From the NCBI RefSeq assembly GCF_022968795.1, contig NZ_JALJRB010000001.1:186001-250000 (forward strand): DNA of 64,000 nt. The letters are read 5' to 3'. Numbering within the stretch: the stretch's first letter is position 1; each line of letters starts with the position of its first letter. The translations under genes and the position numbers were made by a program. The notes beneath the pieces are model-generated. The model was not told the origin of the DNA, searched no databases, and saw only the letters and a list, made by a program, of their open reading frames with translations. Positions 33,859 to 59,694 of this stretch are shown one piece after another. Source of the stretch: Desulfatitalea alkaliphila (GTDB taxonomy: Bacteria; Desulfobacterota; Desulfobacteria; Desulfobacterales; Desulfosarcinaceae).

Positions 33859-34638
33859 ATGACAATGGCCGGCTTATCAAGCAATGACAAACGAACAACA
33901 ACCACTAACCTTGCCCTCATGTGCCAGAAGGCCAAGGCGGGTCGCTCGCGAACTTGTATGGCCTGCGGCAGCGCTTTACCGCCCCGCCGGCGGCGCTATT
34001 GCGACAACAATTGCCGGTTGCAACTGCTGCGCTCCCTCAATCGACGCACCGGCCTGTTGCGCGCGCTGAACACCCGCTACGCCACCTTCTACTTCACCGA
34101 CCGAATGGTCATCATGGACTTGCTGCCCTACGACATGGAGCAGATCTACAGCTACATGCTGCCCCGAAGCGCCAACCGCAAGCCGGTGGACGATTTCTGC
34201 CACCTTTCCAACTCGTTGGGGTCACAATGGTGGCGCGAGCGCGAGCGTACCAAGAAACGTTACCTGGCCTCCCGCCATGTTTTGGCCCAGGCCGTGCGAG
34301 GCAATCGGCCCAAGGAGGCGGTGATACCCGTCTCTTTCGCCGTGCCCTCGGTGCGCATGAGCAGCCTGGTCACCTTGGCGCTGCGCGCCGACGACCTCAC
34401 ACCGGAAAACATCCACAGCCGCATCAAACAGGCCTACCGTTGCCAGGTGAAACAACACCACCCCGACTTGGGCGGAACGGCCCGGGCCTTTGTCAAGATA
34501 CAGGAAGCTTATGAGGCGCTGATCCGCTGGGCCGATCACCCGACCTACGTGTTCCGTGGCGGATTCACCGACAAATGGCTTTATGAAGGCGCCAACAACC
34601 GCTGGATTCAGCCGGCGACCCGTTCCCACACCCCTTGA
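33859..34638 (+). CDS. Protein with N-terminal zinc-knuckle-like motif and C-terminal J-domain
   Basis: An unusual 259-residue protein. Near the N-terminus CMACGSALPPRRRRYCDNNC (about 33-52) looks like a four-cysteine zinc site. The middle is helical and basic. The C-terminal part (about 176-236) is a J-domain with the diagnostic HHPDLGG at about 199-205 and KIQEAYEALIRW. J-domains stimulate DnaK. Having the J-domain at the C-terminus, rather than at the N-terminus as in DnaJ, suggests a specialised DnaK recruiter acting on some client or nucleic acid. GAGGA lies 9 bases before ATG 33859. Confidence 0.78.
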   Translation: MTMAGLSSNDKRTTTTNLALMCQKAKAGRSRTCMACGSALPPRRRRYCDNNCRLQLLRSLNRRTGLLRALNTRYATFYFTDRMVIMDLLPYDMEQIYSYMLPRSANRKPVDDFCHLSNSLGSQWWRERERTKKRYLASRHVLAQAVRGNRPKEAVIPVSFAVPSVRMSSLVTLALRADDLTPENIHSRIKQAYRCQVKQHHPDLGGTARAFVKIQEAYEALIRWADHPTYVFRGGFTDKWLYEGANNRWIQPATRSHTP

Positions 34639-36142: not shown

Positions 36143-38608
36143 TTACATCGTCGCCTGATAGGTGGTGATTTCCGGATCGAGCAACACGCGGCGGCCATAA
36201 GGAGTTGGTGCCAGGGCCGGCCAGTGGGATGGATACAAAGTGGCGAATACCCGCTGAAACATCGCCTCCAGTAGTTGATCCGCCTGCATGGTGGCGCGGG
36301 GGGCGCTGAGAGCCGCCAAAGTCAGCGCCTTCTCTTCCTGGCGGGTTTTGAGCTTTTCGAACAGTTCGAAAAAGAGCAGGATCGGGTCCCGAGCGAGCTG
36401 CGCATCCCGGAGCAAACGGTTTTTCATCTGGCCGATTTTCTCCGCGGAAGCCTCCTTGAGGAAACGGCGCTTGTCACCGCTGTTGAAAAAAGACTGTTCA
36501 CCGACCGCACGCACAACGGCCTTGTCGATCTCGGCCATGTCGGCCCGCAGGCCGGTGGTCATCTCGGCCACGAAATTGTCCGGCACGGCGATGGACAATC
36601 GGGCGAAGGCCTGGCCGTGACGCGCCATACCCTCCTGGAATTCGGCCACGGCGCTGTTCCAAAACAGCCGCTGAATCCGCATCACCTCGTCGACCAGATC
36701 GGGCCCGCCGGGATCCAACACCTTCAAACGGTCGATCATTTCGGGGAAAACGTGGGCGGTGGCGGAAAACAGGTGCTCACCGGTCATCAGTTTGTACAAG
36801 AGGGCGATGGTGGCATGCCAATCCTGAAGGTGCAGCACCAGCGCCAGATCATCGTACACCTCCAGCAAGATCGCATTGGACATCAGATGGGCCGGGGTGG
36901 CATACAGCGGCGTGCCGGCCAATTGGGGCTGCGCGATCCGCACGGGGTCCGCCGCATCGATGGCAACGGCGGTCTCCACATCGATCAGGCCGATGGAAAA
37001 TTTGTCCGGGTTGTTGAGAAAGCCGGGATAGTCATCGGGGTTGCCCGCCACGAACAGGTTCTCCGGCTTCAGATCGCGCATGGCCAACCCCTTTTGGCCG
37101 ATCCAGGCCAGCAAGTCGAGCAGATTGGCGGCGAGGGCTTCCACGGGGCGCCGGTAGCGGGAAAACCGTGTTTCGCGGATGTAGCTGCGCAAATGGCTGC
37201 GGTAACGCTCCACCAGCCGTCGGTTCTCTTGCACCACCGTCTCCAACAACTGATTGACCTGCTCCATAGCCGGCCGGGGCAAGCTCTGCTCCTCGACCGC
37301 AGGCGGATCACCCACCAAGTGCCCCAAGAACCACTGCTTGAGGTGGTATGACGGCACCTCCCCGTGACCCGGTTGGGACGCCAGCCGACGCAACCGCCCC
37401 TCGCACCGGTAGTACACCTCCTGCAGGGCAAGGCATTCCGGCGCCGCCGACTCCCCGTAACGGCAGACAAAGCCGTGCTGATCCCACAACAATTCGGGAT
37501 GCTGGCGCGCTTCTTCGTTCAAACGGCCGTAGCCGCCATGGATCTCCTCCAAAACGGTGCTGAGAAAGTAGTGCTTGGCCAGATCCATGAAAAAAGCAAA
37601 AGAGTCCCCCAATTGCAGGTGGGCCTGCAGTTCCGGCTGTTCCTCCAGCATCCGCATGTAGCGGGTTTCCAGCACCTCGGCCGGCAACCGGTCGCTGTCC
37701 GCGATGACGTGCACCGCCTCCAGAATCACCGACACCCGGGGCACGATGCACTCACGGGGGGCCAACCGCGCCAGGATCCGACCTTCGGCGGCGATTTGAC
37801 GTCTGTAGTCGCTGAAGCGCACCACCGGCTGCGCGGGAATCTTGATCACCATGTGGGTGTCGTAGATCACATAGAAACACTGGCTGCGGCTACCGCCGCC
37901 CTGGCCCAACAGGCCGATGGACATCCGCCGCGTTTCCCACTCCTGCCCATGGAAAATACGCATCTCATAGATCTCGTCCGGACAGACGGATCGGGTTTCC
38001 ACCAGATAGATCTGGGCCAAGGCATCCGCGGCGGCACCCAACTGGTGACGGAACAGCTCAAGAAAAAACGCCAGAATCAGCTGCCCCCCCGGCAAAGGGA
38101 CCGGCGGTTGCGACGTCGACGGCACCTTTCGGGATCGGGGCGGCCGGACAACGGGCGCAAGCGGCATCTCCGCCTGCGATGGCGGGGGGGCGGTGGCATC
38201 GCCGGGACGCCCAAACGGCCGCAAGGCAACCATCTTGCGCCGCGGGCGCAGCAGGAGCACCAGCACAATCAACACCACCAGGGTCGGTGCACCCACCACC
38301 CATTTGGCATAAAGGAGGACGGCCTCGCCATCGAGCCCCACCCGTGCCGCCAAGGTGTCCAGCAAAGAAGAGCGCGGCCGCTGGGTCCCGTCCGCTGAAC
38401 GGGTCATTGCATCCCCGTCCGCCGGCCGCCGGTCCGGCGGCAGGACCCAATCTTGGGCGTCGGGCGCCGTCGCGGGCGCGGCAGCGGCCACCGGCCAAGC
38501 CACGGCCAACCCCAGGACCAAGACCGCCATCCACAATCCTGTCGTTCCGATCATTCGCAAATTGCCGGCAACCCCCTTAGGATCGCCGGTCCCGCTGAAC
38601 TTCGGCAT
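36143..38608 (-). CDS. Membrane-anchored Hanks-type protein kinase with a large insertion
   Basis: The 821-residue protein has a signal-like helix near residues 22-44, a Pro-rich periplasmic stretch, a transmembrane helix (about 102-121), and then a cytoplasmic kinase-like domain. The glycine loop is LLGQGGGSRSQ (about 233-243), the lysine is in VIKIP (K256), and the alpha-C glutamate is near 275. The catalytic loop is MRDLKPENLF with D512, the metal aspartate is in LIDVETAV (DVE in place of DFG, D543), and TPLYATPAH stands near the APE site. About 235 residues separate the alpha-C glutamate and catalytic loop, far more than the usual 70-90. ATG 38608 is used, with AAAGG ahead. The substrate is unknown. 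It is divergent from clpB. Confidence 0.75.
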   Translation of the reverse strand: MPKFSGTGDPKGVAGNLRMIGTTGLWMAVLVLGLAVAWPVAAAAPATAPDAQDWVLPPDRRPADGDAMTRSADGTQRPRSSLLDTLAARVGLDGEAVLLYAKWVVGAPTLVVLIVLVLLLRPRRKMVALRPFGRPGDATAPPPSQAEMPLAPVVRPPRSRKVPSTSQPPVPLPGGQLILAFFLELFRHQLGAAADALAQIYLVETRSVCPDEIYEMRIFHGQEWETRRMSIGLLGQGGGSRSQCFYVIYDTHMVIKIPAQPVVRFSDYRRQIAAEGRILARLAPRECIVPRVSVILEAVHVIADSDRLPAEVLETRYMRMLEEQPELQAHLQLGDSFAFFMDLAKHYFLSTVLEEIHGGYGRLNEEARQHPELLWDQHGFVCRYGESAAPECLALQEVYYRCEGRLRRLASQPGHGEVPSYHLKQWFLGHLVGDPPAVEEQSLPRPAMEQVNQLLETVVQENRRLVERYRSHLRSYIRETRFSRYRRPVEALAANLLDLLAWIGQKGLAMRDLKPENLFVAGNPDDYPGFLNNPDKFSIGLIDVETAVAIDAADPVRIAQPQLAGTPLYATPAHLMSNAILLEVYDDLALVLHLQDWHATIALLYKLMTGEHLFSATAHVFPEMIDRLKVLDPGGPDLVDEVMRIQRLFWNSAVAEFQEGMARHGQAFARLSIAVPDNFVAEMTTGLRADMAEIDKAVVRAVGEQSFFNSGDKRRFLKEASAEKIGQMKNRLLRDAQLARDPILLFFELFEKLKTRQEEKALTLAALSAPRATMQADQLLEAMFQRVFATLYPSHWPALAPTPYGRRVLLDPEITTYQATM

Positions 38609-38818
38609 GACCACCTTTACACCGGACGGGGGCGCGGCGCCCCACGATCAGTTCGCAACCCAAGAGAAAATAGACCACCGGCCGGATGTCGATGCGGCAT
38701 TGGCAACGCGCGGCGGCAGTGACGAAAATTGTTTGGCCGCTACCGATCCGATGGTTCGGGGATATCCCGCAAAGCTTTGTTATTCCGGCTATACCACACT
38801 TTTTTGCCGGAAATGGAT

Positions 38819-56804: not shown

Positions 56805-57118
56805 CGTGCGATCCCGTAGGGGGGCGTGGTGCTCATGGCGGTCATGATGATGACGTGAAAAGCCGGTCATCCTTTTTGTCGATCCGCTGGGTTGGATGTG
56901 GCTGTTTGCCGTCGCCTATAAACGTATATTGCTTTCATTTCGGCGGGTTGTCACCAATATAGGACCGGTGCAACCGGCATTGGCGCACCCCCGCCACTAA
57001 AGACTCATTCATAACCTATATCATATTCAGGGTCAAGCCACCGTTGCAGCGCCGCGCATTGCCCTGCAAAGTGACGCATGATCGACAGTGCGGCCCTGGT
57101 GTTGTGCCGTGCGGCCTA
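56805..57118. other. Gene-free gap between penicillin-binding protein and histidine kinase
   Basis: No convincing gene, terminator or promoter was found in these 314 bases. A small palindrome, CCGGT GCA ACCGG, lies at 56965-56977. Any promoter for the kinase would lie here, but no TTGACA/TATAAT pair with good spacing was seen. Confidence 0.6.
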
Positions 57119-59524
57119 CTACAGGTCCTGCTTGAAGAACTGCTCCGGCTCGGTGACGGTGCCCGGACGGGGGGTGTATTCCACCGGTGCGGAATCCTCC
57201 TTGAAAACCTCGAAGACGGTGTTCTTGGATTCCGGTATGGGCAACAGTCCGGTATCGGCATCGATCTTGGCGAAAACCACCCCTTCGGGAACGGGGAAAA
57301 TGCGCACCGGTTCGTTCTGCAAAATTTTGTCCATGAAGCCGAACCAAATGGGGCCGGCGGCGCCGGCGCCCGTCTCTCCCCGGCCCAAGGTCTGCTCCTG
57401 GTCGTACCCCACCCAGACCCCCGTGACATACCGGGGTGTGTAGCCGACGAACCAGGCATCGAACAGGTTGTTGGTGGTGCCGGTTTTACCCGCCACCGGT
57501 CGCTTGAGGGCGCGCATGCGCTGCCCGGTGCCGTACTTGACCACCCCTTCCAGCAGATTGGTCATGATGTAGGCGGTGCTTGCTTCGATCACCTTGCGCC
57601 GCTCCGGGTTCATCTCCTCCAACAAATTGCCGTGGCGGTCTTCAATTTTGGTGATGAAGGCCGGTTCCACCAGGTGCCCTTGATTGGCGAAGACGGTATA
57701 GGCACGCACCAACTCCAGCAGCGAAACACCCGAAGATCCCAGAGCGATGGAAAGGTCGCGGTTCAAGTTGGATTCGATGCCCATTTTGCGGGCGTAGTCG
57801 ATGGCATAATCGATGCCGATATCCTGCAGGATTTTAATGGTCACCACATTGCGCGAATGGGCCAAGGCGTCTCTGAAGAGGGTCGGACCGTAAAACCGCT
57901 CCCCGTAATTTTTGGGTTTCCAGGTGAAGTCCTGTTCGGGATCCTGGAAAACAATGGGGGAGTCGATAATCACGCTGGCGGCCGTGTAGCCGTGATCCAG
58001 CGCGGCCGCGTAGATGATCGGCTTGAAAGCCGATCCGGGTTGCCGCCGGGACTGAATGGCCCGGTTGAACTGGCTCTCGGAAAAATCCCGTCCGCCCATC
58101 ATGGCCTTGACCAGGCCGGTGTCGGCCTCGATGCACATCAAGGCGGCCTGCACCCGGGGCGTCTGGTCCAACTGCAATTGCCAGCGGCCGCTGTCCGGAT
58201 CGCGATCCCCCAACGCCACCAAAATCACATCTCCCGAGGCCAAGGCCTGGGAAGGGCGCGTCAAGCGGGCGGCCGAATGGTGCACGTCGGGGTTGGGCTT
58301 GCGTGCCCAGCGCATGTCGTCCAAAAGCATGACGCCCTGCTCGCCGCCCAGGTCCACCCTTACCCGGCCCGCCCTGTCGTCCACCTCGACAACCACGCCG
58401 CGGGCGGTCCTGCCCGGCTCGAGGGGATTGGCCACCAGTGTTTCCGCCTGCACCGCCAGAAAAGCGTCGATCTCTTCCGCCGCAAGTTGCTTCAAGGGGC
58501 CACGATACCCTTCCCGCCGATCGAGATCTTTGAGGCCCTTTTCAATCTCTGCCATGGCCGCTTGTTGAAAATCGATATTGACCGCCGTGTGGACCTTCAG
58601 CCCCTGGCTGTAAAGCGCATCCATGCCGTAACGCTGCTCCAGATAGCGCCGCACATGTTCGCTGTAGACCGGCACCTGTTCCAGATAAAGGTTGCGCCGT
58701 GGATGAATATCCAGAACCGTTTCGATGGCCTCGGAAGCCTCGATCTGATCGATGTAACCTTCTTCCACCATCCGGTTGAGCACATAAATCTGACGCTGCT
58801 TGGCCCGGTCGGGATGGCGAAAGGGCGAATAGCGACTGGGGGCCTGGGGCAGACCGGCCAACATGGCGCACTCGGCCAGGTTGAGGGTATCCACCGATTT
58901 ACCGAAATAGTTCTGGGCGGCTGCCTCCACGCCATAAGCGCCGTGGCCCAGATAGATCTGGTTCAGATAGAGAAACAGGATCTCATCCTTGCTGAAGCTG
59001 CGGTCGATTTGATAAGCGAGAATGGCTTCCTTGATTTTGCGTTCGTAACTGCGCTCGGGGGTCAACAGAAAACTCTTGGTCACCTGCTGTGTGATGGTGC
59101 TGCCGCCCTGGACGATGGTGCCGGCTTCCAGATTTTTATACATGGCGCGTATGATGCTGATCAGATCGATGCCTTTGTGCTTGTAGAAACGGGCATCCTC
59201 GGCGGCGATGAAAGCCTGTTGCAGGGTAAGCGGAATTTGCGCCAGGGGCAGCACAATGCGCCGCTCCCTGAAGAATTCGGCGATGACGTTGCCGTCGTCG
59301 GCATGCACCGTGGTGATGATGGGGGGATCATAATCCTGAAGGGAGCTGATCTTGGGCAGATCCCTTCCGATATACCAAAATACGCCGACGGTGCCGGCCA
59401 CCGCCAGCACCATGAGCAGCAAAACACTCCACAGAGACCATTTCAGGATCCGCAGCCAAGGACCGCGCTGCTGTTTGCGGGCCCGTTTTTTCAGTATCTG
59501 GGAGGTGGTTGTCGGTTTCTTCAT
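57119..59524 (-). CDS. mrcA: Class A penicillin-binding protein 1A (transglycosylase/transpeptidase)
   Basis: Bifunctional peptidoglycan synthase. The 801-residue protein has an N-terminal anchor helix (about 28-51) and a GT51 domain with FIAAEDARFYKHKG (about 105-118) and GGSTITQQVTKSF (about 140-152). An OB-like insert follows. The transpeptidase domain has PGSAFKP (the SxxK serine), SRN in AHSRNVVTIKI, and KTGTTNN. A conserved C-terminal tail ends the protein. ATG 59524 is used because the anchor starts there; an in-frame upstream extension adds 23 residues. It probably sits in the inner membrane facing the periplasm. Confidence 0.93.
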   Translation of the reverse strand: MKKPTTTSQILKKRARKQQRGPWLRILKWSLWSVLLLMVLAVAGTVGVFWYIGRDLPKISSLQDYDPPIITTVHADDGNVIAEFFRERRIVLPLAQIPLTLQQAFIAAEDARFYKHKGIDLISIIRAMYKNLEAGTIVQGGSTITQQVTKSFLLTPERSYERKIKEAILAYQIDRSFSKDEILFLYLNQIYLGHGAYGVEAAAQNYFGKSVDTLNLAECAMLAGLPQAPSRYSPFRHPDRAKQRQIYVLNRMVEEGYIDQIEASEAIETVLDIHPRRNLYLEQVPVYSEHVRRYLEQRYGMDALYSQGLKVHTAVNIDFQQAAMAEIEKGLKDLDRREGYRGPLKQLAAEEIDAFLAVQAETLVANPLEPGRTARGVVVEVDDRAGRVRVDLGGEQGVMLLDDMRWARKPNPDVHHSAARLTRPSQALASGDVILVALGDRDPDSGRWQLQLDQTPRVQAALMCIEADTGLVKAMMGGRDFSESQFNRAIQSRRQPGSAFKPIIYAAALDHGYTAASVIIDSPIVFQDPEQDFTWKPKNYGERFYGPTLFRDALAHSRNVVTIKILQDIGIDYAIDYARKMGIESNLNRDLSIALGSSGVSLLELVRAYTVFANQGHLVEPAFITKIEDRHGNLLEEMNPERRKVIEASTAYIMTNLLEGVVKYGTGQRMRALKRPVAGKTGTTNNLFDAWFVGYTPRYVTGVWVGYDQEQTLGRGETGAGAAGPIWFGFMDKILQNEPVRIFPVPEGVVFAKIDADTGLLPIPESKNTVFEVFKEDSAPVEYTPRPGTVTEPEQFFKQDL

Positions 59525-59694
59525 TGTTTTCCAATCTCGTTCGATCGTTCGATTGCCGCGGCGCCCGCTGCGGCAATCGGTATTGACCGCCACATGATAA
59601 CATCCTGAACCTTTGGGGCCGAGCCTACCAAACTTGCATCATAACGGCAAGCTGAAGCCGTACGGGTGTCAAGGCAATCGCGTATAGAAATCAA

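Follow-up and report, generated by a model that had tools for sequence, protein, structure and literature searches.

The 64,000-nucleotide stretch of the Desulfatitalea alkaliphila genome considered here (the window; contig NZ_JALJRB010000001.1, positions 186,001 to 250,000) carries on its minus strand a gene for a predicted protein kinase of unusual layout. The open frame is real and extends over 36143-38614 (-), with an ATG at 38608 that gives 821 residues and an in-frame GTG at 38614; homologues of the gene (36143..38608) were found in 100 of the 194 sampled genomes of the order. All parts of the protein are given below with their coordinates on the minus strand. A first hydrophobic segment, either signal anchor or signal peptide (residues 19-42, 38483..38554), and a second one followed by positive residues (102-121, 38246..38305) were called by hydropathy only. 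They enclose a predicted extracytoplasmic segment (43-101, 38306..38482; hydropathy and alignment) and lead into a predicted cytoplasmic juxtamembrane linker (122-177, 38078..38245; hydropathy and composition).

The core shared by the family, about residue 177 to 800 in window numbering, opens with a putative N-lobe (210-296, 37721..37981), delimited by motifs and conservation at a non-significant profile match, in which a Gly-rich stretch at about 232-242, K256, E275 and a beta4 strand VSVIL can be placed. An enlarged middle region follows (297-488, 37145..37720; motifs and conservation), made up of a piece with E314, a hinge-like FFMDL at 339-343 and a stretch up to alphaE. The C-lobe core (489-620, 36749..37144), defined by hhalign against canonical kinases and by invariant residues, contains alphaE, MRDLKPEN at 510-517, DVE at 543-545, GTPLYATPAH at 565-574 and D596 of alphaF. 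Residues 621-796 (36221..36748) form a C-terminal extension conserved in the family alignment, and the tail at 797-821 (36146..36220), set off by tail comparison, ends in YQATM, the Thr of which is residue 820.

The catalytic motifs were read directly in the protein: the Gly-rich stretch from G232, K256 within VIKIP, E275, M510-R511-D512 followed by LKPEN517, D543-V544-E545 and D596, with T571-P572-A573 occupying the expected APE position. A sequence-only reading of this DNA had described a glycine loop, lysine, catalytic Asp and metal Asp together with MRD, DVE and TPA motifs, a gap of about 235 residues between the alphaC Glu and the catalytic loop, and a new architecture, and had named a family survey for the same layout as a check. 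That survey was made on an alignment of the window protein and 60 of 61 sampled loci (60 order loci plus L002; L075 was left out), and it bears these points out. K256, D512, K514, N517, D543, E545, T546, T566, P572 and D596 are identical in 61/61 members, as are R227, R228, S242, Y268 and P290, and E314 of the middle region is kept in 60/61. Most members have xRD, DxE and TP[SAT], which replace the HRD His, the DFG Gly and the APE Glu, and the first residue of the HRD triad is M in 32, I in 18, L in 7, V in 3 and A in 1.

The spacing is equally fixed. E275 and D512 are 237 residues apart in the window protein, a distance of 75 in PKA (E91 to D166 in its numbering), and the alphaC-Glu column is separated from the catalytic Asp by 233-242 residues in 61/61; the family also has about 13 more residues than canonical kinases from the catalytic loop to DxE. 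The large insertion proposed earlier holds as extra length but is probably not a single block of ~150 residues: judged by the conserved motifs, ~30 residues would be added from beta4 to the hinge and ~120 from there to alphaE. Because the same residues and spacing are kept in 61/61, which chance could by no means produce, the odd motifs are family signatures rather than decay. To call the architecture new is fair in that the layout is fixed throughout the alignment and Pfam and NCBIfam scans of the window protein and 32 members matched no dedicated family model.

Membership of the protein kinase superfamily, likewise upheld, draws on several comparisons. Pfam Pkinase (PF00069) scored 22.8 bits on the window protein, below the cut-off of 31.7, and reached E<=0.01 in 31/32 scanned members with a best value of 8e-9. 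When the family profile was aligned by hhalign with 27 canonical kinase segments from relatives, probabilities of 97-98 and E values of 4e-11 to 4e-13 were obtained over alphaE, the catalytic loop, the metal motif, the activation segment and alphaF; the E values are those of a one-template comparison, and the result was repeated with a larger set. The C-lobe is homologous to that of canonical kinases. The family resembles Hanks-type (PknB-like, PF00069) kinases in the profile-matched order alphaE, RDLKPxN, DxE, GTPxYATP and alphaF Asp, in its N-terminal hydrophobic segments and in the FHA and PP2C neighbours of some relatives, and differs from them in the replaced HRD His, DFG Gly and APE Glu, in a distance from alphaC to the catalytic loop that is longer by ~160 residues, and in an N-lobe that profiles do not recognise.

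The best rows of a profile search of PDB matched over the C-lobe only, with GCN2 (E 4e-4) at the top and LanKC (E 1e-3) in the third. GCN2/eIF2alpha kinases, which carry an insert between beta4 and beta5, gave the best rows over alphaE and the catalytic loop; the match covers ~50 residues, and the larger insert of the family seems to lie after the hinge. The best NCBIfam match was LanL (27.4 bits on the window protein; E<=0.01 in 30/32 members), and further NCBIfam matches among the 32 members were LanKC in 6, TOMM kinase/cyclase in 5, MAD6 in 4 and PglW in 4. The class III/IV lanthionine synthetases LanKC (ThurKC) and LanL share with the family a metal motif of similar sequence (LIDVETAV, compared with IIDFETAM) and GVAMxDLxPxN; the family differs from them by its large inserts, and the window protein has no Pfam lyase or cyclase match. 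Membership of LanKC/LanL was rejected on the score, far from the cut-off of 650, and on the same missing lyase and cyclase domains.

Neither DxE nor a missing HRD His implies inactivity, since both occur in active kinases. In the parts of PMC1821047 drawn on here, PKA is described with Tyr at the H164 position, the DFG Gly is missing in most kinase-like families outside the eukaryotic protein kinase (ePK) cluster, and Glu takes its place in the FadE and choline-kinase subfamilies. These subfamilies share the Glu for Gly exchange with the family and, in the same passages, differ in having Arg for Lys72 and an insert between VIa and VIb, while the present family keeps the Lys and has its insert earlier. 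The LanKC kinase ThurKC, which has DFE, is active and binds ATP, and its E384A variant is impaired, according to the portion of PMC10604976 consulted. As worded in the section of PMC12599244 used, a pseudokinase is recognised by loss of the beta3 Lys, the HRD Asp or the DFG Asp, and all three are present in 61/61 members. By these residues the family looks catalytically competent and not like a pseudokinase.

The window kinase is probably anchored in the membrane, as suggested earlier, the topology being read only from hydropathy and the positive-inside rule. In 38/61 members the N-terminus is extended by 70 residues or more; a simple hydropathy scan picked out two hydrophobic segments in 29 of these 38, and the remaining 23/61 were classed as soluble-type. 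Membrane-type and soluble-type members cluster on the quick version of the tree that was made, with 3 label changes against a shuffle mean of 18.6. The Pro-rich stretch had been taken for extracytoplasmic, which is not supported for the main part of it: Pro makes up 27% of the predicted cytoplasmic linker (122-177), against 10% of the extracytoplasmic segment (43-101) and 5% of the core; the medians in the 29 relatives with two hydrophobic segments are 8% for the linker and 3% for the extracytoplasmic segment. Among 20 hand-picked extracytoplasmic pieces, most of the 17 from beyond the window's close relatives have in common a piece of ~90 residues (L..G..I...W..G....Y). The window, L002 and L033 have a shortened, degenerate form of it. 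The ~90-residue piece (e.g. in L047, L050 and L059) is a possible small sensor domain.

The Desulfosarcinaceae and their relatives are a lineage of anaerobes that carry out sulfate reduction. Genomes with the kinase represent 68 of 120 genera sampled in the order, and some have two to four matches. Across the phylum, 15 of 395 sampled genomes matched at E<=1e-3: the strong matches belong to 6 genomes of the order (the window's own included) and to one genome of another order (G324, in two pieces), and the other 8 are weak matches to generic kinases over 36-89 positions. Within this sample the family is nearly confined to one order. No family match was found among the viral contigs, plasmids and phages searched. 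A single-protein search of genome contigs, which reaches close relatives only, matched L002, a Desulfatitalea metagenome-assembled genome of the Desulfosarcinaceae that is the nearest named relative and has a core 80% identical. Among the open-access literature matches listed for this family or setting, no such kinase family is named and nothing treats Ser/Thr phosphorylation in Desulfosarcinaceae and relatives; the term Ser/Thr kinase is absent from the part of PMC2702500 available.

Gene neighbourhoods vary among the kinase loci, and the recurrent partner is a gene for an FHA protein of ~240 residues with one FHA domain, a linker and an FHA-like second half; the first domain was called by Pfam in three scanned proteins, and the second half is FHA-like by alignment reading. 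The FHA profile was searched in the same 194 genomes and the coordinates were compared with those of 125 kinase loci, from which 5 short rows of the order search had been left out. Among the matches listed (unlisted FHA matches were not counted), an FHA-protein gene lies within 3 kb at 18/125 loci, in 18/100 genomes, against 0.28 expected on the assumption of 4.5-Mb genomes. The 18 loci span nine families (f1, f10, f18, f30, f38, f59, f62, f65 and f68) and include membrane-type and soluble-type kinases. Both genes have the same orientation at some loci and opposite orientations at others, and therefore a repeated arrangement is favoured over one frozen operon. A PP2C gene stands in line with the kinase and FHA genes in L161 and L167. 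At the level of whole genomes, a strong FHA protein (E<=1e-50) is present in 86/100 kinase-bearing versus 29/94 kinase-less genomes, as raw counts in which kinship is ignored.

Threonine motifs occur on both sides of this putative partnership. In 45 of 56 distinct FHA proteins the linker contains TM.[MIVL][DNK][TSP], a TMxMDT-type motif. The kinase tails, otherwise variable, contain [EDQ].T[IMVL] 46 times in 30 of 52 tails (9 of 61, under 12 residues, were left out), compared with a mean of 7.0 and a maximum of 18 in 1000 shuffles, counts that relatedness inflates; in the core the same pattern is rarer than in the shuffle (39 versus 80). As separate observations, the linker motif of the FHA proteins (56 open frames, e.g. 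L033:8049-8807, where the linker Thr stands in TMVVK) is a possible phosphothreonine switch, and the tail motif occurs in tandem copies in L080 and L084. Of nine canonical kinases at FHA loci, eight (L143, L145, L146, L148, L151, L153, L170 and L171) have, ahead of the kinase domain, a stretch similar to the FHA linker motif, SETM[VI][FY]GD, which is missing in the ninth, L142; the nine were chosen by length and HRD pattern, and only L142 and L151 were checked by Pfam. In L142 (4987-9067) and L151 (8367-12788), the genomes of which lack a window-type kinase, genes for a CHASE2-Pkinase, a PP2C and an FHA protein stand in line and make up a module of canonical kinase, phosphatase and FHA protein.

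From the conserved catalytic residues, the C-lobe homology, the FHA linkage in some lineages and the conservation of the motifs, we infer that the window protein may be an active membrane-anchored Ser/Thr kinase, of a family without a dedicated model, within a phosphothreonine/FHA circuit; this assignment has about an even chance of being right. In such a circuit the kinase would autophosphorylate on Thr, possibly in the C-terminal tail at a motif of the EATI/QATM type, and the FHA protein would dock on this phosphothreonine. Once docked, it would receive a phosphate on the linker Thr in the TMxMDT-type motif; this would switch its binding partners, and PP2C would reverse the phosphorylation; the enlarged middle region may shape regulation or substrate choice. 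A comparable working is described in the part of PMC8546545 seen, in which the FHA protein GarA docks on the autophosphorylated N-terminus of the kinase PknG and is phosphorylated at a conserved ETTS motif. As far as that source goes, PknG-GarA/OdhI and the present system have in common an FHA protein in which a conserved Thr motif lies beyond the FHA fold itself. They differ in the FHA-like second half and the linker motif found here instead of an N-terminal ETTS, in the tail docking, which is only predicted here, and in that Pfam matched no rubredoxin or TPR domain. The parallel would be one of working, not of descent.

Several of the observations gathered in this paragraph and the next weigh against that assignment. 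By profile the N-lobe is not significant (probability under 5%); at this level a low-stringency local alignment paired K256 and E275 with the beta3 Lys and the alphaC Glu, respectively, and in one forced global alignment the canonical N-lobe fell instead within the middle region, from near residue 383 onwards. AlphaFold modelling with L002 gave a mean pLDDT (predicted local distance difference test) of 38.7 for the window core, a low-confidence model in which the middle region is mostly helical, and of 56.9 for residues 173-350, where the order of strands and helices is compatible with a kinase N-lobe. With the latter model, Foldseek returned 487 matches at E<=10 and zero at E<=0.001, VIA-align reached a best Z of 4.9, and no protein kinase domain was among the matches listed. 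Because the N-lobe profile is not significant and the fold searches are uninformative, the kinase call rests on the C-lobe and the invariant motifs. The alphaC-Glu column is also relaxed, with E in 44, D in 13, G in 3 and Y in 1 of the members. Such relaxation, together with the DxE that the sources in part describe for LanKC and choline-kinase-type families and with the place of LanL and LanKC in the NCBIfam and PDB searches, would suit a kinase-fold enzyme with another reaction, such as AMPylation, glutamylation, or phosphorylation of a small molecule or peptide in the manner of LanKC and choline kinases. This is nevertheless unlikely: the Pfam matches include no lyase or cyclase domain, D512, K514 and N517 are invariant, and the FHA and PP2C gene linkage points to protein phosphothreonine. 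The altered HRD, DFG and APE and an E275 that is not strictly kept could instead indicate a catalytically inactive pseudokinase that serves as a scaffold for FHA partners, which is very unlikely given the beta3 Lys and the two Asp present in every member (PMC12599244, in the section used).

On the side of the circuit, the matches listed place no FHA-protein gene within 3 kb of 107/125 loci, that of the window among them, and PP2C was not found at the rest of the 88 kinase loci examined (duplicates and short flanks included). No strong FHA protein occurs in 14/100 kinase-bearing genomes and one is present in the 29 kinase-less genomes already counted. The pairing is accordingly not exclusive, and members of the FHA family accompany canonical kinases too. 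The tail motif is missing in 22/52 tails and in 5/10 aligned FHA-adjacent kinases (L037 and L088-L091), and because of the latter it does not go together with FHA adjacency. The window kinase itself adjoins clpB, and no FHA gene lies at the window, L002 or L032 loci. The loci with no FHA gene nearby, the position of the FHA paralogue of the window's genome on another contig and the FHA-adjacent kinases that lack the tail motif would be expected if the enzyme were an active Ser/Thr kinase that acts on other substrates, the linkage to FHA genes being lineage-specific and not describing the window's protein, a reading that is possible but on the doubtful side. It has to face the excess of linked loci over expectation, the FHA-protein genes near the kinase in L033 of the same genus and in L034, L037 and L167 of the same family, and the retention of a DQTIVLE linker in an FHA paralogue of the window's own genome and of YQATM in the window tail. 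That paralogue lies on another contig (G000:C9:88115-88810; L140:9116-9811 -), and the genome also has one PP2C_2 match and eight canonical Pkinase matches at E<=1e-15. As no FHA gene adjoins the kinase, its candidate partner is this paralogue or something else. On the quick tree the missing neighbour is easiest explained as loss, at least twice, with gain in some lineages as the alternative, and the FHA model is weakest for the window's own gene. A proteostasis kinase functionally tied to ClpB would account for the divergent arrangement of the two genes in the window and close relatives; however, clpB is near the kinase at 5/62 loci, all in the window's family (with the contig end of L002 probably a sixth), and this reading is barely credible. 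The divergence from clpB described earlier is accordingly right in orientation, the window gene being transcribed away, and no wider meaning of it is supported; a functional clpB link was rejected as local synteny.

Two further features of the window lie outside the kinase gene. A 259-residue protein at 33859-34638 (+) resembles a J domain in a C-terminal piece (PF00226, E 9.5e-7) and, weakly, a zinc ribbon (E 0.03 or worse), and a relative of it lies near the family kinase at 5/62 loci. Long frames overlap on opposite strands at 57044-59608 (+) and 57119-59593 (-); a Pfam scan of the former gave no match at E<=1e-8.

For the lineage, the analysis delimits a broad unnamed bacterial kinase family in Desulfosarcinaceae and relatives, and candidates for its substrate, phosphosite and docking motif are now named; the testable gain lies in the FHA linkage and the Thr motifs. 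Tentatively, an undescribed kinase family, an offshoot of the protein kinase superfamily with fixed inserts, DxE and a C-terminal extension, may have become a writer of a phosphothreonine/FHA circuit within one order, where it would stand in the position that a canonical CHASE2 kinase takes in other genomes (two checked). Thr followed by a hydrophobic residue in an acidic setting might then be the currency of kinase tails, pre-kinase linkers and FHA linkers, letting kinases of different descent feed one FHA switch. If it is true that one phosphothreonine motif and one FHA reader serve across kinase descents, this would bear on how enzymes are swapped in signalling circuits.

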